DNA of 6,596 bases from Methylomarinum sp. (lineage in GTDB: Bacteria; Pseudomonadota; Gammaproteobacteria; Methylococcales; Methylomonadaceae). The position numbers were made by a program, and so were the translations under genes. Location: NCBI GenBank assembly GCA_013139755.1, contig WTAG01000005.1, positions 1-6,596 on the forward strand, in the 5' to 3' direction. This document shows positions 1 through 6,596 of the stretch, one piece after another. Positions within the stretch are counted from its first letter, which is position 1; every line of letters begins with the position of its first letter. The notes under the pieces were generated by a model. The model saw nothing but the letters and a program-made list of their open reading frames with translations. It ran no database searches and was not told the DNA's origin.

Positions 1-289
1 AGGTATCTTAGGGGATAGAGAAGTCAAGGTCACAGGTCGCATGCAAGCCAACATTGCAGCGCCTATTCGAATGGCCGCCACGGAAGGTTTAGGCCTAGTT
101 ATGCTTCCCAAATTTATCGTGGGAAGAGATATCGAAAAAGGCAGACTACAGACCGTATTAGAACAATACAGCATATCCCCCTTAGAAATTCACGCTGTTT
201 ACCCCCACCGTAAATACTTATCAGCGAAAGTACGAGAGTTTCTGGATTTTTTACAAAACTGGATGCCTAATCGGGTAGGTATGGATTAA
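1..289 (+). CDS. LysR-family transcriptional regulator, C-terminal part (5' end outside window)
   Basis: This is the end of a LysR-type regulator. The reading frame is open from the window edge (first full codon at 2), so the Met at 41 is internal and not the start. The 95 visible residues correspond to the second half of the effector-binding (periplasmic-binding-protein-like) domain. They include the stretch VTGRMQANIAAPIRMAA, then EGLGLVMLPKFIV, which is the typical 'G.Gi..lP.f.v' strand and helix, then a charged segment and HAVYPHRKYLSAKVREFLDFL, the usual final strand and helix. Full members are about 300 residues with an N-terminal helix-turn-helix, which is not visible here. The effector and target genes cannot be told; LysR targets are often divergent from the regulator, and that side lies outside the window. 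The gene ends with TAA and faces the YihY operon convergently. Confidence 0.9.
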   Translation, partial: GILGDREVKVTGRMQANIAAPIRMAATEGLGLVMLPKFIVGRDIEKGRLQTVLEQYSISPLEIHAVYPHRKYLSAKVREFLDFLQNWMPNRVGMD

Positions 290-334
290 CGCAAGCCATT
301 CCTTAATCTTAATTTACAATATTAAACACGGGAA

Positions 335-352
335 ATTATGGAGGGCACAGAG
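335..352 (+). repeat. Left arm of an imperfect inverted repeat
   Basis: The 18 bases ATTATGGAGGGCACAGAG match the reverse complement of 560-579 (ATTACATGGAGGACACAGAG) with one mismatch and a two-base insertion. The two arms bound a segment of about 245 bp in the space between convergent genes. GGCACAGAG-type sequences recur between genes in many bacterial genomes, which supports a dispersed repeat, but I cannot see other copies here. No target-site duplication is visible outside the arms. Confidence 0.55.
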
Positions 353-358
353 TTTCAG

Positions 359-389
359 CTTAATCTCTTTAGGGGACCTAAAGATTAAG
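359..389 (+). other. Bulged stem-loop downstream of the LysR gene
   Basis: CTTAATCTCTTTAGG (359-373) pairs with CCTAAAGATTAAG (377-389) across a GGA loop. This gives 13 base pairs with a two-base bulge in the left arm. It is 70 bp after the LysR stop and has no T-run after it, so it is a poor intrinsic terminator. It could protect the transcript end or be part of the enclosing inverted-repeat element. AGGGG (371-375) could instead pair with CCCCT (398-402), which would be exclusive with this hairpin. Confidence 0.45.
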
Positions 390-439
390 TCAGTGGCCCC
401 CTATGTAACAGCAAATCCAAGATATTTTAAGTAAAAAGT

Positions 440-470
440 AAGATGGGCAAAACGATAGTGAGCCCATCTT
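440..470 (-). terminator. Probable bidirectional intrinsic terminator between convergent genes
   Basis: AAGATGGGC (440-448) and GCCCATCTT (462-470) form a perfect 9-bp stem around a 13-base loop. Read on the minus strand the stem is followed by ACTTTTTACTT, a reasonable U-rich tail, so it best serves the YihY/small membrane protein unit, whose last stop is at 610. On the plus strand the tail is TGCTCTGCTT, weaker but possibly usable for the LysR gene. The position between convergent genes fits shared use. Confidence 0.55.
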
Positions 471-480
471 TGCTCTGCTT

Positions 481-498
481 CTCTACATTAATGTAGAG
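481..498. repeat. Perfect 18-bp palindrome
   Basis: CTCTACATTAATGTAGAG is identical to its own reverse complement over all 18 bases. With no spacer it can make only a tight hairpin, so a dimeric protein-binding site or a piece of a dispersed palindromic element is as likely as an RNA structure. It lies 10 bp after the terminator stem and inside the 335-579 inverted repeat. It is not next to any gene start, which argues against a simple operator. Confidence 0.5.
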
Positions 499-559
499 CC
501 AGGGAGATTAGACGATTTTTTGGTGGTTGCTTTTAACAACTTTTACCACCGAAGTTCTT

Positions 560-579
560 CTCTGTGTCCTCCATGTAAT
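560..579 (-). repeat. Right arm of an imperfect inverted repeat
   Basis: CTCTGTGTCCTCCATGTAAT is the inverted partner of 335-352, with 17 of 18 bases matching when a two-base insertion is allowed. It lies 31 bp downstream (in the minus direction) of the small membrane protein stop codon. See the left arm for interpretation. Confidence 0.55.
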
Positions 580-609
580 GCTTTTAAATCCAATAATCCT
601 AACAACAGT

Positions 610-912
610 CTACATCCGAATAAGAAGCAACACACCCGCAACAATTCCTAATATTGCAATCGTCATATCGCTATAAGGAAATGTAAAATGAAACAAAAAT
701 AGACTACTCCGTAACACCAACCAAATACCTAACAATAAAAGACCGACATCACTCAATTTACTTTTGACTGCATGCAAAAACAAAACTAGCCCCGCAACCA
801 ATGCCATTATAGACATCACCAGCTTTTCATAAGGAAAATGTAGATTTGTTAAATCCAGTACACCTTGAGTTATTAACCATAAAGCCAATATTAACAGTCC
901 CCAATATTTCAC
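610..912 (-). CDS. Small four-helix membrane protein made of an internal tandem duplication
   Basis: This 100-residue protein is almost entirely hydrophobic, with four predicted membrane segments at about 5-21, 30-47, 57-74 and 83-98. Residues 5-46 align without a gap to 57-98 (offset 52). I count about 16 identities in 42, including GLL, WL, the strictly repeated FPY (26-28 and 78-80) and VAG (39-41 and 91-93). It therefore arose by duplication of a two-helix hairpin. The start is GTG at 912-910, preceded by a good AGGGAG site at a 5-base spacing. That site overlaps the TAG stop of the YihY-family gene just upstream, so translational coupling is likely. I do not recognise a named family and the function is unknown; co-transcription suggests a membrane role linked to the YihY-like protein. 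No cysteine or metal-binding motif is present. Confidence 0.8.
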   Translation of the reverse strand: MKYWGLLILALWLITQGVLDLTNLHFPYEKLVMSIMALVAGLVLFLHAVKSKLSDVGLLLLGIWLVLRSSLFLFHFTFPYSDMTIAILGIVAGVLLLIRM

Positions 913-917
913 AACAA

Positions 918-923
918 CTCCCT
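918..923 (-). promoter_or_regulatory. Ribosome binding site overlapping the upstream stop codon
   Basis: On the minus strand AGGGAG lies five bases before the GTG start of the 100-residue membrane protein. Its first two bases lie within the TAG stop (924-922) of the YihY-family gene. The overlap explains the use of GTG as start and suggests that ribosomes finishing the first gene feed the second. Confidence 0.7.
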
Positions 924-2211
924 AAATTTCTTTTAATAAAATATGTCCCGAAGCATTACTCAGCTTAGTAAACTGCTCATAAGACTTCATTTCTGGAATA
1001 CAATTTTGCCCTAACACTTCTAGAGCATTGAGTACTGAGTCTATTGTTAAAGCATTAATATCTCTAGCTGGCTGGTAAATATCGTATTCGCCTTCTAATA
1101 CATTTAATTTGACAATAAGATGACACTCAATCAATACCGAAAGTGTTTTTTGCACAACAGAAACAGGTAACAACAAGCCTTGTGCTATCTCCTCTGCATC
1201 AGGTGACTTCTCGCCATTAGCAAAGCGCTGCACAATAAAATGACATACCTGCAAGGCAATATTCTTTTTAAGTGCATTGCTAAGATTAAAAAATTTGTCA
1301 TTATGCTTAAAACTATCAAAGTTTTGCACATAAAATGAAATTTCGCAGCCCAGCAAAACAACAACCCAAACCAATTGCAACCAGATAATAAACAAAGGTA
1401 AAGCGGCAAAACTGCCGTAAATGGCATTATAACTTGATGCGCCCAATTGCAATGTTAAATAAGCCCATTGAACTAAATGATACATAACGCCTGTCACAAC
1501 ACCTGCAATAACACCGGCTTTAATATTTATTTTTTGGTTAGGCATAAATAAAAAAACGAAGCTAAATAGCAATGCCATAATGACTACAGGCGAAAAGCTC
1601 ATGGCATAAATCACTAGCTTCGTGCCTAATTCAGGTAAATGAATTATCTCGACCAACCAGGTTATTTTTGTTTTAACAAAAACGGTCATACTACTAGACA
1701 TAATCAACAAAACAGGAGCCAGCATCATTAGCGACATATAATCGCTCAATTTTCTTGCTAAGGGTCTATTCTCTTTGATACGCCAAATATGATTGAATGA
1801 CTCCTCAATATTGCCAATCACTTTAATCACCGTCCAAAACAGCACTACCACCCCTATTCCTGCAACTACTCCTCCCTTGGTGCTGGATAACATATTCTGC
1901 GAAAATTCAATTAGCTGGAGCATCATAGTATCTTGCTCTGATGCCTTATCTAACAATTGCTGCTCTAGCATTTTTTCGAAGCCAAACCCTTTAGCAACCC
2001 CAAATAACAAGGCAATGATTGGCACGATAGACAGCAATGTATAAAGTGTTAAAGCCGAAGCCCTAAGCTGGCAAAGATCTCGACTGAAACCTTGAACGGA
2101 CAATAAAACAATTTTTATTGCTTTAATAAAAACACTCTGAACTGATGACCTATTTTCATCAGACACCATCCAGATATCCTGTTTTATAAATTTCGTAATA
2201 TTTAAGGTCAT
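922..2211 (-). CDS. YihY/BrkB-family inner-membrane protein with C-terminal winged-helix-like extension
   Basis: The protein has 429 residues. The family signature is clear: RASALTLYTLLSIVPIIALL (50-69), the segment FWTVIKVIGNIEESFNHIW (125-143), and YNAIYGSFAALPLFIIWLQL (261-280) followed by a cytoplasmic exit after FYVQNF. Six membrane segments are visible at about 52-75, 112-134, 155-179, 197-223, 231-255 and 264-292. Residues from about 305 to 400 are soluble and resemble a winged-helix fold (helix SNALKKNIALQVCHFIVQRF, then EEIAQGLLLPVSVVQKTLSVLIECHLI, then a wing). This extension is absent from short YihY proteins but common in longer family members. The family was once mislabelled ribonuclease BN; its real role is not settled. 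The ATG at 2211 has no clear ribosome site, while an ATG at 2169 (residue 15) has AGGA at a 7-base spacing and would give 415 residues. It is first in a unit with the 100-residue membrane protein. Confidence 0.9.
   Translation of the reverse strand: MTLNITKFIKQDIWMVSDENRSSVQSVFIKAIKIVLLSVQGFSRDLCQLRASALTLYTLLSIVPIIALLFGVAKGFGFEKMLEQQLLDKASEQDTMMLQLIEFSQNMLSSTKGGVVAGIGVVVLFWTVIKVIGNIEESFNHIWRIKENRPLARKLSDYMSLMMLAPVLLIMSSSMTVFVKTKITWLVEIIHLPELGTKLVIYAMSFSPVVIMALLFSFVFLFMPNQKINIKAGVIAGVVTGVMYHLVQWAYLTLQLGASSYNAIYGSFAALPLFIIWLQLVWVVVLLGCEISFYVQNFDSFKHNDKFFNLSNALKKNIALQVCHFIVQRFANGEKSPDAEEIAQGLLLPVSVVQKTLSVLIECHLIVKLNVLEGEYDIYQPARDINALTIDSVLNALEVLGQNCIPEMKSYEQFTKLSNASGHILLKEI
2177..2180 (-). promoter_or_regulatory. 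Ribosome site favouring an alternative YihY start at 2169
   Basis: On the minus strand AGGA stands seven bases before the in-frame ATG at 2169-2167 (Met15 of the long form). The upstream ATG at 2211 is preceded only by A/T-rich sequence with no purine block. The first 14 residues of the long form carry no family motif, so the shorter start is credible. Confidence 0.4.
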
Positions 2212-2534
2212 AAATTATTTTAAATTAAGATAAAACGGTGAACAAAATATTAACTTTAATCGTAAAAAAAGCAAGCATTACAGCGCAACCTAAAAAGCAA
2301 CACCTTTACCACTCCCTCAATACTAAATGCTCTTATCTGGAATCTAACTAGGTAGTTCAATTTATTTTAATGCTTACCGGGTACGAACTTAATTGCAGGT
2401 TAAAACACATAGCGACCAAGTTGAGTTACGAATTATAGTCAGTAAAAAACATAACGACTCACTCTATTGCAATTAGTATTTATGTAGATAAAAATAAAAT
2501 TAAAAAGGTTTTAGCCGTAGAAGAATCACCGCTA
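2212..2534. other. Intergenic region without a recognisable gene; YihY upstream region
   Basis: These 323 bp separate two minus-strand genes. I see no reading frame of useful length, no tRNA-like structure and no GC-rich hairpin with a T-run after the SRAP stop. On the minus strand a weak promoter-like pair lies at 2274-2269 (TTGCTT) and 2252-2247 (TAATAT) with a 16-base spacer, about 35 bp before the YihY ATG at 2211. Both boxes are imperfect, so this is only a candidate. Confidence 0.35.
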
Positions 2535-3188
2535 TTACCGCAAACAATTTTCATCATTATGATGTGGACTATTTACCCATGCACTGATCGTTTTTCGCAT
2601 CATCCCTTGATAAGCATCCACAGCCAATAATAACTGCATTGTTTCCAGAGTCGTTTGTTTATCCAACCAACGATTATAATTTTTATTCTCGATAATAACA
2701 GGCATACGCTGATGTATCGGATTTATCAGGGCATTGGCAGAGGTCGTAATAATAGTACAACTATAGATTGTTTCTGTGCCGTGCTCCCAATAATCCCAAA
2801 GTCCAGCAAAAGCGAACAACTGATGATCTTCACGACTAATACAATGGGCCTGTTTGCCTTGCTCAAGTTGTTGCCATTCATAAAACCCCGTAGCAGGGAT
2901 TAGACAACGTCGTTGCTGATAAGCTGATTTAAAAGCAGGTTTCTCTGCCAATGTTTCTGCTCGGGCATTAATAAGATGGCTACTGATCTTACTATCTTTT
3001 GACCAATGAGGAATCAGCCCCCAAAGCAAGTTGACAGCTTTATTACTACCATCATCTAGTTGGACTATCGTCAGTATCTTTTGCCCCGGTGGAATATTGT
3101 AGCTGGTTTCATAGTGTGGCAATCGATGTAACCGAAATGTTTCAATGACTTGTTCAGGTGTTGCTGTTAAATTAAATCTGCCGCACAT
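2535..3188 (-). CDS. SOS response-associated peptidase (SRAP/YedK/HMCES family)
   Basis: This 217-residue protein matches the usual SRAP length of about 220. These proteins form a thiazolidine crosslink with abasic sites in single-stranded DNA through Cys2 after Met removal, shielding the site from cleavage and mutagenic repair. The key residues are present: Met-Cys2-Gly-Arg-Phe at the N terminus, Asn74 and Arg76 in HLINARAET, Glu104 in IPATGFYEW, and His159 in the HQRMPVI motif. WGLIPHW (56-62) is also typical. An AGAGG site at 3198-3194 five bases before ATG supports the start, which is also forced because Cys2 must be exposed. It is a single-gene unit divergent from the lipoprotein operon. 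I saw no LexA-type CTG-N10-CAG box upstream, so SOS control is not supported by the sequence despite the family name. Confidence 0.95.
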   Translation of the reverse strand: MCGRFNLTATPEQVIETFRLHRLPHYETSYNIPPGQKILTIVQLDDGSNKAVNLLWGLIPHWSKDSKISSHLINARAETLAEKPAFKSAYQQRRCLIPATGFYEWQQLEQGKQAHCISREDHQLFAFAGLWDYWEHGTETIYSCTIITTSANALINPIHQRMPVIIENKNYNRWLDKQTTLETMQLLLAVDAYQGMMRKTISAWVNSPHHNDENCLR

Positions 3189-3371
3189 AAATACCTCTTC
3201 AGATAATTTTATATTTAGTCTAACAAAGTAGATCTGAATTTTTCATCTAATAAAATACCAAGGTTTTTTTTGAATTATACCTATTACTTAACCTGAAAAT
3301 TATATTTAAGATATTACGTGCATATTCCTAAAGCTTTGCTAATATTACTTTCTAATCAAGGATAAAATAAA
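3189..3371. promoter_or_regulatory. Divergent promoter region between the SRAP gene and the lipoprotein-heme sensor-kinase operon
   Basis: This 183-bp AT-rich space must hold the promoters for both directions. On the minus strand a perfect TATAAT occurs at 3279-3274, about 86 bp before the SRAP start, but the -35 position is poor. For the plus-strand operon no convincing pair of boxes is seen; TTAACC (3288-3293) with TATTAC 18 bases later is the best weak candidate. The lipoprotein gene has a good AAGGA at 3358-3362, nine bases before its ATG. A run of eight T at 3264-3271 may bend the DNA. Confidence 0.35.
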
Positions 3372-4208
3372 ATGAAAAAACACCTTCCCATATTACTCAT
3401 CTTGGTTTCGTATGGTTGCGCCACTCAACAAGAAAATGTTGTAAAAATGCAGCAACCACCTCATCAACCAGATTCAGTAAAAATTGACTCGAATCAATTG
3501 AGTTCAATCGGCCAAACTGATTCTAAAAAAATTACTACTCAAGCAATTTCCCCAGAAAAGAAAAGAATTAAAATTATTCCGTCAAAACCACGGCTTATTA
3601 TCAAAAAACATAAAGCCGCTAAAGTAACATCTCTGAAAAACATTAATCACAAAACAGCTGTTTTATCCCCCGTACCATCAAGTATTAAGAAGACTGAACC
3701 AACAATTGTTGCAGCGATAGAAGAAAACACCCCATCAATAAAACCGAATAATATTTCTTTTAATCTTGAGCAATTACCACTCAATTTTGGTAGTACCTGG
3801 GTTTTAGATAGAAAGAAAGACAGTGTTTCAAATATCACTCGCTGTCTGCTCATCAGTCATAAGAAAAAATTTAATGATGGCTATAGTGAAGCAACAATTT
3901 CTTTGCAATTAACATCTGATACATTTTTTATAAAAACCAATTCCACAATAGACATGAGTTATCCTGATATCGGCATTTTCATAGATCAAAATGCACCTTT
4001 ACCATTAGAGCAATTATTTGGCGACTCAAGTATACTAATAAAACAAAATACAAAAATAATTACAACGCAACTACTTCAGGGAAATGAACTATCTATTAAG
4101 TTAGGATTCTGGCCAACCTGGCCAAAATCAGAAACCCGTCGTATTGATTTCTCCCTTACTGATTTTGATAAGGCCTATCAGTCTTTTCTAGCTTGCGAAA
4201 AACTTTGA
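3372..4208 (+). CDS. Probable lipoprotein with basic linker and C-terminal cysteine-pair domain, function unknown
   Basis: The 278-residue protein starts with MKKHLPILLILVSYGC, a short lipoprotein signal. Cleavage would leave Cys16 at the N terminus; the box SYGC has an unusual Tyr at -2 but an acceptable Gly at -1. The residue after Cys is Ala, with no Asp at +2, consistent with outer-membrane sorting. Residues 17 to about 125 are low-complexity, rich in Lys, Pro, Ser, Thr and Gln (for example IKIIPSKPRLIIKKHKAAK), probably an extended tether that could cross the periplasm or touch peptidoglycan. Residues from about 130 form a beta-rich domain: FGSTWVLDRKKDS, then Cys158, FFIKTNSTIDMSYPDIG, LGFWPTWP (244-251) and a last helix with DKAYQSFLACEKL. 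Cys158 and Cys275 could form a disulfide. I do not recognise the family; an IalB-like fold is only a thought. It is first in a probable operon, 35 bp before the heme-sensor gene, so a partner or ligand-sensing role in that system is plausible. Confidence 0.8.
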   Translation: MKKHLPILLILVSYGCATQQENVVKMQQPPHQPDSVKIDSNQLSSIGQTDSKKITTQAISPEKKRIKIIPSKPRLIIKKHKAAKVTSLKNINHKTAVLSPVPSSIKKTEPTIVAAIEENTPSIKPNNISFNLEQLPLNFGSTWVLDRKKDSVSNITRCLLISHKKKFNDGYSEATISLQLTSDTFFIKTNSTIDMSYPDIGIFIDQNAPLPLEQLFGDSSILIKQNTKIITTQLLQGNELSIKLGFWPTWPKSETRRIDFSLTDFDKAYQSFLACEKL

Positions 4209-4243
4209 CCTGATTTCTATTCTATTTATCTACAGGCACCATC

Positions 4244-5128
4244 ATGAATTTACGTGTTAAATTTAACCTTGTTCTTGGTTTATCCAGTGCTGCTGGAATT
4301 GCATTCGCCGCATTATTTTCTTACCAACTATTACAGAAAAATGCGCGTGATGAAGTATTAGACAGTGCCCGTATAATGATGGAAAGCGCAATAGCCGTCA
4401 GGAGTTACACCGTAGCTGAGATTAAACCGTTACTCGCACTACAGCAAAAACGTCAATTTATAAAACAAACAGTGCCTGCTTATGCTGCTAATCAATATAT
4501 TGCCAAACTGCAGAAAAAACACCCCGACTATAGTTATAAAGAAGCGACTCTAAACCCTACCAACCCCATAAACAGAGCCATTACCTGGGAAGCAGATATT
4601 ATTAATTGGTTCCGGGGGCATGATGATGAAAAAGAATTAATTGGTGAACGAGATACTCCCACAGGCCCGGTTTTATACCTAAGCCGTCCAATTAAAATCA
4701 GCAATCCCAAATGTCTTGCTTGTCATAATACGCCTGCAACGGCACCAGAAACATTGATAGAAACCTATGGAACAGCTAATGGCTTTGGCTGGAAGCTTAA
4801 TGAAGTAGTAGGCGCACAAATTGTTTCTGTCCCTATGTCTTTACCATTGAAACGCGCTGAAACGACTTTTTATACCTTTTTAACATTGATTGTTAGCGTT
4901 TTCGTATTAGTCGTCATCTTATTAAATATTCTGCTACATTATATCGTTATCAAACCTATCATATTGATTTCCAAACAGGCCGATAAAGTAAGCATGGGCG
5001 AACTGACTATCCCCGAGCTAAATTTAAAAGGAAATGACGAGGTCTGCTCTGCAAGCGAATCATTCAACCGCATGCATCGCAGTCTGGTAAACGCATTTAC
5101 TATGTTAGAAGATGATGAAAACGATTAA
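4244..5128 (+). CDS. Tll0287-like (DUF3365) periplasmic c-heme sensor with HAMP domain and no output domain
   Basis: The protein has 294 residues. A first membrane helix (about 7-29) leads to a periplasmic region of about 180 residues that fits the Tll0287-like heme family: MESAIAVRSYTVAEIKPLL (46-64), a conserved QTVPAYAANQYI segment, NPINRAITWEADIINWF, and the single c-type heme site CLACH at 157-161. Downstream GFGWKLNEVVGAQIVSVPM closes the domain. A second helix (about 209-235) is followed by a HAMP domain, with IKPIILISKQADKVSMGEL (236-254), then the acidic NDEVCSASESFNRMHRSL, and the protein ends 15 residues later with an acidic tail. Relatives often go on to a histidine kinase, diguanylate cyclase or chemoreceptor domain; here nothing follows. 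Heme attachment would need the periplasm and the cytochrome c maturation system. The ribosome site is weak (CAGG, seven bases before ATG). The kinase gene starts 36 bp later and is the natural output candidate. Confidence 0.9.
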   Translation: MNLRVKFNLVLGLSSAAGIAFAALFSYQLLQKNARDEVLDSARIMMESAIAVRSYTVAEIKPLLALQQKRQFIKQTVPAYAANQYIAKLQKKHPDYSYKEATLNPTNPINRAITWEADIINWFRGHDDEKELIGERDTPTGPVLYLSRPIKISNPKCLACHNTPATAPETLIETYGTANGFGWKLNEVVGAQIVSVPMSLPLKRAETTFYTFLTLIVSVFVLVVILLNILLHYIVIKPIILISKQADKVSMGELTIPELNLKGNDEVCSASESFNRMHRSLVNAFTMLEDDEND

Positions 5129-5164
5129 ACCAGCAATATTCATTTATAATCAAAAATCGTAGTT

Positions 5165-6559
5165 ATGTTAACTGATCAACCTAAAAAAATAGATAAATAT
5201 AGTATTCATTCCGTATTAGGTCATGGTGCTATGGGGGTTGTATATAAAGGCTACGATAAAGAAATTGATCGTCATGTTGCAATCAAAGTTCTACACCCTC
5301 ATCTATTAAGCGGCGAAATGGGGGATGAACTTGAGCAACGTTTTAAAAACGAAGTTAAAGCAGCGGCGAAATGTTTACACCCAAACATTGTGACCATCTT
5401 TGATTGCGGTGTTAGTAATGGTTCGCCCTATATGGTCATGGAATATGTACAAGGTATCGACTTAAGGGAAATACTTAAATCTCAGCAAAAATTCAGCCTG
5501 GCACAAACCATAGGAATGACTTGCAACGTACTTGATGCATTATATGCTGCACATGAAATGGGTATAGTTCATCGAGATATAAAACCTGCTAATATCTTGT
5601 TGCTGGATACTGGTGTGGTTAAAGTAACAGATTTTGGTGTAGCCAGAATTGACAGTTCTGATTTAACCCAAATTGGTGATGTGATAGGTACACCTAGTTA
5701 CATGTCACCGGAAGCAAAAGCAGGTGCACTGGTAGATAATCGTTCAGACCTATACTCTGCTGCACTGGTATTATTTGAACTACTCACATTTAAACGCCTT
5801 AAATCAACCCAGATAAACACAGAGACACTTGCCGAGGCATTGGAACATCTGGAGTTATCAAATCCCCAAAAACACCAGCTAATAAAAGTCTTTAATAAAG
5901 CATTAGAAACTAATCCAAAACAACGCTATCAAACGGCTTTACAACAATCTAAAGCATTAACAGAAATGCTTGAAGTATCTATAGACTCATACCAACAGGC
6001 AGATGCACTGGCCGAAACTGTTATTCAGCTAAGAAGCTCTATCAAACCAACTTTAGAATCAGGTAATTCTAATCAACACACCGCATCAAACCTTCCTCAG
6101 CACCCTTCTTCAGATTTAAGTATTGTAGAAAAAAGCCTGACCAAATATTTAGGTCCTATTGCCACAGTACTGGTAAAAAAACAGGCTAAAAAAAATACCA
6201 CTATGGATCAGTTACTCAGTTCACTTTCCAGTCATATTCCCTCTACAAAAGAACGTGAAGACTTTATGCTGAGTCTGGAGTCATCAGGCATTTTAAAAAC
6301 CGGCAACAGCAGAGCAGAAAGCCAAGTTCAAATTAGCTTATATTCTCAAAGTTCTTCTAATAACAATCAAAAATTATTTCTTTCTGAACAAGATATCGAA
6401 AAATTAACCAAAGAATTAATTATCTATCTCGGGCCTATTGCTAAACACATGATTAAATCGGCACTAAAAAAAGCAAGCACGCATGAGGAACTCAACACTA
6501 TACTAGCCGATAAAATACCCGACCTAAAACAACGCCAGCGTTTTTTAGATAATCAATAG
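5165..6559 (+). CDS. Hanks-type serine/threonine protein kinase with duplicated C-terminal module
   Basis: The 464-residue protein has a complete kinase domain at about 12-270. Motifs in order are the glycine loop GHGAMGVV (19-26), catalytic Lys41 in VAIKVL, Glu63 of helix C in KNEVKAAAK, HRDIKPAN with Asp138 and Asn143, DFG at 156-158, GTPSYMSPEA (175-184) ending the activation segment, Asp195 in RSDLYS, and Arg254 in NPKQRY. All residues needed for phosphotransfer are present. A linker rich in Ser, Asn and Gln follows. Then two copies of a helical module with YLGPIA (328-333 and 421-426) align without a gap at an offset of 93. Each ends in an IP...R..F motif. No membrane helix, PASTA or WD repeat is present, so the kinase is cytoplasmic. 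HRD with Arg suggests control through activation-loop phosphorylation; Thr168 and Thr176 are visible candidates. The ATG has no clear ribosome site. It is last in the operon after the HAMP-ended heme sensor. Confidence 0.95.
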   Translation: MLTDQPKKIDKYSIHSVLGHGAMGVVYKGYDKEIDRHVAIKVLHPHLLSGEMGDELEQRFKNEVKAAAKCLHPNIVTIFDCGVSNGSPYMVMEYVQGIDLREILKSQQKFSLAQTIGMTCNVLDALYAAHEMGIVHRDIKPANILLLDTGVVKVTDFGVARIDSSDLTQIGDVIGTPSYMSPEAKAGALVDNRSDLYSAALVLFELLTFKRLKSTQINTETLAEALEHLELSNPQKHQLIKVFNKALETNPKQRYQTALQQSKALTEMLEVSIDSYQQADALAETVIQLRSSIKPTLESGNSNQHTASNLPQHPSSDLSIVEKSLTKYLGPIATVLVKKQAKKNTTMDQLLSSLSSHIPSTKEREDFMLSLESSGILKTGNSRAESQVQISLYSQSSSNNNQKLFLSEQDIEKLTKELIIYLGPIAKHMIKSALKKASTHEELNTILADKIPDLKQRQRFLDNQ

Positions 6560-6596
6560 CTATGCTTCAATGTGACACAGAACAATAAATAACACC
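6560..6596. other. Sequence after the kinase gene, no feature seen
   Basis: The 37 bases after the kinase stop hold no hairpin or T-run, so the transcript may continue beyond the window. Whether another gene belongs to the operon cannot be judged. Confidence 0.3.

Follow-up and report, generated by a model that had tools for sequence, protein, structure and literature searches.

HAMP domains are taken as relays to an output domain on the same chain, and receptors that end at HAMP have therefore been puzzling ever since a HAMP domain was first solved, that of Af1503. In the accessible text on Archaeoglobus fulgidus, HAMP is the only cytosolic part of Af1503, and its gene adjoins that of Af1502, a small helical STAC protein that bears the motif LGPx(x)A (PMC4834066). 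As far as the preprint is available, sCache_heme proteins of the transmembrane-HAMP type are assigned to sensing and stand-alone ones to redox-like roles (PMC12889525). Target 2 of P. azotoformans is an sCache_heme protein with two transmembrane helices, HAMP, no fused output and no axial Cys, and it binds nitric oxide (NO) tightly. The HAMP-terminated sCache_heme protein of this species is dimeric and releases NO slowly. The available main text names no output in trans for it and contains neither 'serine' nor 'threonine'. In the SLC5-STAC histidine kinases CbrA and CrbS, STAC is an internal linker within a single chain with histidine kinase output (PMC13022988, available in part). Here, a contig of Methylomarinum sp. 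(WTAG01000005.1, assembly GCA_013139755.1, positions 1 to 6,596; the whole stretch of 6,596 nucleotides is the window) encodes a HAMP-terminated heme sensor beside a Ser/Thr kinase with a tandem tail of 'LGP' repeats. Such LGP/STAC-like tails most likely read the terminal HAMP in trans.

Three co-directional open reading frames (ORFs) at 3372-6559, separated by 35 and 36 bp, encode an exported protein of 278 amino acids, the sensor of 294 and the kinase of 464. The first-pass annotation had described a Tll0287-like protein with CLACH, two membrane helices and HAMP at its end, followed by a complete Hanks-type kinase without a membrane segment; both descriptions hold. In a Pfam scan, the sensor matched PF11845 (Tll0287-like) with 142.4 bits at residues 31-197 and HAMP with 30.2 bits at residues 231-282 (cut-off 25 bits). 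No Pfam family was found C-terminal of HAMP, and the ORF ends 12 residues later. Hydropathy indicated two hydrophobic stretches, within residues 7-27 and 205-244. Cysteines are present at 157, 160 and 268 only. Since the one outside CLACH lies inside HAMP, there is no axial Cys. By the definition in the available text of PMC12889525, the predicted transmembrane helices, HAMP and absence of an axial Cys place the sensor in the signalling (Cluster 2) sCache_heme type. By analogy, its ligand may be NO.

The window sensor was aligned with 18 chosen relatives of 63-90% identity to it. C157, C160 and H161 are invariant in all 19 proteins, and all keep CXXCH and a short post-HAMP end with a conserved tail. 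Besides CXXCH, the alignment has no periplasmic Cys column. The HAMP end SFNRMHRSLxNAxxML is conserved across the 18 relatives. This conservation of both CXXCH and the HAMP end argues that selection, not truncation, accounts for the stop after HAMP. Sensor relatives made up 7994 of the 8000 candidates scored; for gene neighbourhoods, 80 homologous loci were used, the best of 205 sensor relatives from a genome scan. The post-HAMP tail has at most 24 residues in all 81 sensors (80 loci and the window) and at most 15 in 78 of them. For a base rate, a profile of ten HAMP sequences was run on the 80 loci and the window; it retrieved 81 ORFs, which are the 81 sensors, and may miss other HAMPs.

The kinase ORF matched Pkinase (PF00069) with 163.3 bits at residues 12-256. 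With a G-loop (GHGAMG, 19), VAIK (38), HRD (136), DFG (156) and SPE (181), it is an intact Hanks-type Ser/Thr kinase whose activity is predicted from these motifs. The best 19-residue hydropathy is 1.27, and the kinase therefore has no membrane helix. The PASTA kinase model NF033483 matched residues 10-288 only, with 274.5 bits against a curated cut-off of 450. Membership in this family was rejected on the low score and the lack of a transmembrane helix. The C-terminus consists of two LGP repeats of about 50 residues, each with LGPIA (LGP at 329 and 422). Precomputed domains placed PF26309 (PF26309.1), which we take to be the family also named DUF8082, on 12 of 12 homologous kinases. A Pfam scan of the tail at E up to 1, with a release lacking the PF26309 model, gave no family. 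A literature search confined largely to openly accessible papers found no mention of DUF8082 and none of the pairing of the sensor with an LGP kinase. In the available part of PMC8756737, DUF4388 and HAMP occur together, as a gene list only.

An iterated LGP profile matched 78 ORFs, in 76 of the 80 loci and the window. Apart from the second halves of three split genes (L021, L024, L063), each of them lies no more than 600 bp from the sensor. Three kinase ORFs next to a sensor have no tail: in L003 the contig ends, and in L021 and L063 the frame is split. Away from the sensor, the same 1.117 Mb contain 12 ORFs matching the kinase profile; three are split second halves and the other nine are without LGP. 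The tail is constant while the catalytic domain varies between kinase, class III cyclase and kinase-cyclase. The pairing is marked by the tandem LGP tail of the kinase, not by the kinase domain.

With the window kinase as query, a kinase ORF was found within 700 bp of the sensor in 74 of the 80 loci. It follows the sensor on the same strand in 62 loci, precedes it on that strand in 10 and is convergent with it in 2. The gap of the downstream pairs has a median of 18 bp and is at most 50 bp in 51 of the 62. A small IalB-like gene lies between sensor and kinase in L048, L062 and L069. Once cyclases and the tail profile were added, 77 of the 80 loci had an output gene within 1 kb. These were 64 kinase-LGP, seven single-chain kinase-cyclase-LGP and three cyclase-LGP genes, together with L063 (kinase and cyclase-LGP split over two ORFs near the sensor), L043 (LGP tail cut by the contig end, head unseen) and L003 (kinase cut by the contig end). 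Among the three loci without output, contig sequence is limited to 57 bp downstream in L046 and to 191 bp upstream in L065; the third, L078, is a genuine exception, its sensor having no output gene in the surrounding 1 kb. Counts over the 80 loci are inflated by related species, and evenly drawn genome samples are the fairer measure.

The gammaproteobacterial sample comprised 274 evenly drawn genomes. The limits, E <1e-10 for LGP and E <1e-40 for the sensor, were set after viewing the lists, at an E-value gap in each. LGP was present in 21 genomes (24 at 1e-3) and the sensor also in 21. Both occurred in 20 genomes, each alone in one and neither in 252 (Fisher p 4e-28). In all 20 shared genomes, the two genes share a contig and lie no more than about 1.5 kb apart. 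In G103, the LGP-only genome, the last 43 residues of a sensor stand at a contig edge. In the sensor-only genome (G286), a kinase-like ORF, recognised by eye, follows one of two sensors after 3 bp and is cut by the contig end. The sensor lies between kinase-LGP and cyclase-LGP genes in G109 and G230. Weaker Tll0287 relatives in the same genomes have mostly longer open frames; some of the four opened carry an output domain of their own, as judged by eye, for example GGDEF in L153. As an out-of-sample set, 149 Acidobacteriota genomes were used. LGP at E <1e-10 was found in five, exactly the five with a full sensor match; a sixth genome (G358) has a partial sensor match. Sensor and LGP gene are convergent in three of the five (G362, G410, G428). 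Adjacency in this genome alone would have refuted the first-pass annotation; instead, it clearly recurs in homologous loci and in unselected genomes. The proposed role of a Ser/Thr kinase as output in trans is supported, with a correction: the kinase is the commonest output, but not the sole one, as a class III cyclase or a kinase-cyclase may take its place, or kinase and cyclase may flank one sensor.

LGP genes also adjoin other receptors that end at HAMP. Further LGP genes were found with a single-repeat profile (A5). Twelve gammaproteobacterial LGP genes at E <=1e-3 are not beside a heme sensor, a CorA-like false match (G178:C13, by eye) having been set aside. Nine of them adjoin another receptor with two transmembrane helices that ends at HAMP; the other three are G002:C85, G002:C2 and G175:C180. 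Such a receptor is also located beside LGP genes in G199 (E 1.3e-3) and L097, and a pair in L155 was met from the HAMP side. In a Pfam scan of nine such receptors, HAMP lay 10-21 residues from the C-terminus in each; the G171 receptor was classed by its likeness to L197. The proteins beside these other receptors include divergent ones with one LGP repeat, headed by PATAN/DUF4388 or a roadblock-like domain; DUF4388 is below cut-off in the gammaproteobacterial ones. The weak single-LGP loci opened in Acidobacteriota (L214-L228) all adjoin a receptor with HAMP 7-10 residues from the C-terminus (15/15). Over all Acidobacteriota loci opened, 19 of 20 have a receptor; the miss is G016:C22. Among five heads scanned, DUF4388/PATAN was above cut-off in four and a roadblock-like domain just under cut-off in one. 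LGP genes without receptor were found in L089, L091, L095 and L096, and in L160 (G170:C130, matched by profile A2 only), where the repeat is degenerate. Rows were dropped for E >1e-3 (G156:C5, G205:C4), for a half-length match without locus (G349:C37) and for lack of a locus (G352:C112). Hahella encodes proteins of almost only two LGP repeats, with no adjoining receptor or enzyme (L089:5639-6250, L090:5679-6320). These orphans may be competitors or adaptors for the system. Single-LGP kinases of Hahella (L094:5847-7133, L095:4806-6098) stand beside a sigma-factor-like gene, with no receptor.

The LGPx(x)A motif of STAC, as defined in the accessible text of PMC4834066, is present as LGPIA in both kinase repeats. 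In STAC itself, the motif sits between h1 and h2 of a helical bundle. The best PDB sequence match to LGP was Af1502 (rank 1, with a weak E of 0.043). Af1502 was also tied for the best fold match, a weak one, and Foldseek on the LGP tail gave no match at E <=0.001. For the SLC5-histidine kinases, six long frames were obtained via PF00474 in 94 genomes, four of them below the family cut-off; CbrA-like and CrbS-like labels and STAC borders were assigned by reading of the sequences. Alignment of LGP with CbrA-like STAC by hhalign gave 87-90% with the region preselected and 44% at full length; the landmark for the regional alignment was found in four of the six frames. CrbS-like proteins gave 4-21%; a comparison against a single sequence gave 21.5%. 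Within three CbrA-like proteins, it is the STAC region to which the LGP profile has its best local match. A degenerate CbrA pattern, set up by guess, was rejected, with matches at chance level only. The genomic neighbours of LGP genes fit a STAC-type coupling to HAMP-only receptors.

Sensor and kinase probably form a two-protein receptor, in which the HAMP of the heme sensor controls a cytoplasmic kinase docked via its LGP tail. The cue for the membrane protein would be periplasmic, either NO or redox state, and would be sensed by its Cache domain with a predicted covalent c-heme. The signal would pass via the second transmembrane helix to the terminal HAMP. The kinase would dock on HAMP through the tandem LGP/STAC-like tail, replacing an output domain in cis. 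On a dimeric receptor, docking would bring two kinase chains into one assembly, with trans-autophosphorylation gated by the HAMP state. The gene just upstream encodes an IalB-like periplasmic protein, by which the sensor may be tuned. What we infer here is the physical docking, the control of the kinase, the direction in which regulation runs and the ligand. We also lean towards a wider role of LGP (PF26309, STAC-like) as a general HAMP-reading adaptor. Bacteria would then have a class of two-gene receptors in which any Cache-type sensor ending at HAMP controls an LGP-tailed effector of whatever kind in trans. Effectors would be Ser/Thr kinases, class III cyclases, kinase-cyclases, PATAN/DUF4388, roadblock-like and perhaps TIR proteins.

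The co-directional order of most pairs, with the kinase downstream in 62 of 80 loci at a median gap of 18 bp, and the existence of orphan LGP proteins would also suit a functional linkage without contact, in which sensor and kinase act in one pathway, their genes stay together for co-regulation and LGP is a dimerisation or localisation module of the kinase that never touches HAMP. This is rather unlikely. The adjacency persists in convergent and reversed gene orders, and the LGP tail is found on cyclases and PATAN/DUF4388 proteins beside HAMP-terminated receptors, which a kinase-specific dimeriser would not predict. The sensor could mainly be a redox or electron-transfer protein, with the kinase answering to the IalB-like protein or to cytoplasmic cues. 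The IalB-like gene that directly precedes the sensor in 38 of the 80 loci and the redox-like roles of stand-alone sCache_heme proteins agree with this. It is nevertheless improbable, since the available text of PMC12889525 assigns the transmembrane-HAMP type to sensing and the 19 aligned sensors are of this type, with no further periplasmic Cys column. HAMP coiled coils can in principle pair, and NCBIfam matches the HAMP region of the sensor to histidine kinases and chemoreceptors. A receptor in mixed assemblies with such full-length HAMP receptors, leaving the kinase a bystander, is however very improbable: no such gene recurs beside the sensor, where the recurrent neighbours are an LGP-tailed output and an IalB- or FecR-like gene.

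Sensor-domain proteins of 417-1326 amino acids were collected (86 listed from 1263 candidates scored), and no clean in-frame sensor-kinase fusion was found among the 19 sequences read. Natural sensor-kinase fusions had been predicted, and this support is absent. In the four kinase-bearing matches (P0137, P0155, P0209, P0217), the stretch between second transmembrane helix/HAMP and kinase is out of frame by eye; they were therefore rejected as kinase fusions and counted as frameshift joins of neighbouring genes. In-frame sensor fusions exist with cyclase (P0138, P0177) and TIR (P0159); those with histidine kinase and GGDEF are known by precomputed domains alone. In P0143 and P0158, TIR with LGP repeats is joined to the heme sensor by apparent frameshifts. 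A further output next to the heme sensor may therefore come from TIR-LGP genes. Many proteins with TIR and sCache_heme are within P0159-P0205; P0159 has TIR first and no HAMP. In P0133, which could be an assembly chimera, a sensor-HAMP 62% identical to the window sensor is followed by FHA on one chain. FHA binds phosphothreonine, and this arrangement would suit a Ser/Thr kinase pathway.

The features of the locus are listed in the table. An IalB-like relative is located one or two places upstream of the sensor in 38 of 80 loci and the window by BLAST clustering, and in 39 of 80 by phmmer. These proteins share a conserved Cys pair and a WPTWP motif. The 278-residue protein of the window has no Pfam family above cut-off. 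The AlphaFold2 model of its IalB-like domain has a mean pLDDT of 91.8, and the best Foldseek matches are chains of 3dtd (IalB; prob 1.00, E 1.2e-4, TM 0.63 by target). A FecR-like group, rather than the IalB-like one, supplies the gene before the sensor in 11 of the 80 loci; FecR scored below cut-off in both genes scanned (L042:6958-7926, L078:6982-7998). The remaining window genes are IalB-like, SRAP, BrkB and LysR, and the downstream side of the kinase lies beyond the window. The minus strand encodes a BrkB/YihY-family membrane protein (922-2211) and a SRAP-domain protein (2535-3188), both ordinary neighbours. An Rfam scan of the window gave zero matches to known RNAs.

Table. Predicted features of the sensor-kinase locus, in window positions.
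Feature	Positions	Strand	Basis or remark
IalB-like gene (278-aa exported protein, putative lipoprotein by eye)	3372..4208	+	35 bp upstream of sensor gene
IalB-like periplasmic domain of the 278-aa protein	3708..4205	+	AlphaFold2 and Foldseek
HAMP-terminated sCache_heme (Tll0287-like) receptor, 294 aa	4244..5128	+	PF11845, HAMP, homologue family
CLACH c-type heme attachment motif, sensor residues 157-161	4712..4726	+	motif invariance in alignment
Second transmembrane helix of sensor, into HAMP (approximate)	4865..4942	+	hydropathy windows
HAMP domain of sensor	4934..5089	+	Pfam, residues 231-282
12-residue post-HAMP tail, receptor C-terminus	5090..5125	+	conserved ending; length compared across 81 sensors
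Ser/Thr kinase with tandem LGP tail, 464 aa, no membrane helix	5165..6559	+	ORF, Pfam, hydropathy
Hanks-type kinase domain with catalytic motifs	5198..5932	+	PF00069, residues 12-256
LGP (STAC-like, PF26309) repeat 1	6116..6268	+	profile match, kinase residues 318-368
LGP (STAC-like, PF26309) repeat 2	6398..6547	+	profile match, kinase residues 412-461

A small tail module is a concrete and common candidate for plugging unrelated effectors into terminal HAMP domains. NO-binding c-heme Cache sensors gain a likely output, and Ser/Thr kinases and nucleotide cyclases would be placed under a periplasmic heme sensor. The uncharacterised Pfam domain PF26309 gains a testable role. Among solved structures, the kinase domain is nearest to PknB; unlike PknB-type Hanks kinases, the window kinase has no transmembrane helix and no PASTA sensor, and its tail consists of LGP repeats. 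In the SLC5-STAC histidine kinases, as far as their description is available, a kinase receives its membrane input through STAC, as proposed for LGP. The window sensor and Target 2 of P. azotoformans have the c-heme Cache domain, two transmembrane helices, HAMP, no fused output and no axial Cys in common, by the available text; for the window sensor, in contrast, a trans partner is proposed. HAMP as the sole cytosolic part of the receptor is shared with Af1503. In the accessible description of the archaeal pair, STAC is a free protein of 60-90 residues near transport genes, whereas the window system is bacterial, has a heme sensor and carries its two LGP units at the end of an effector, which may be a kinase, a cyclase or another protein. 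With bacterial relatives and no transport-gene setting in the window, it was not classed in the Af1503-like family, although it would work alike. If LGP is a general adaptor, this would also explain the role of the Af1503/Af1502 pair.
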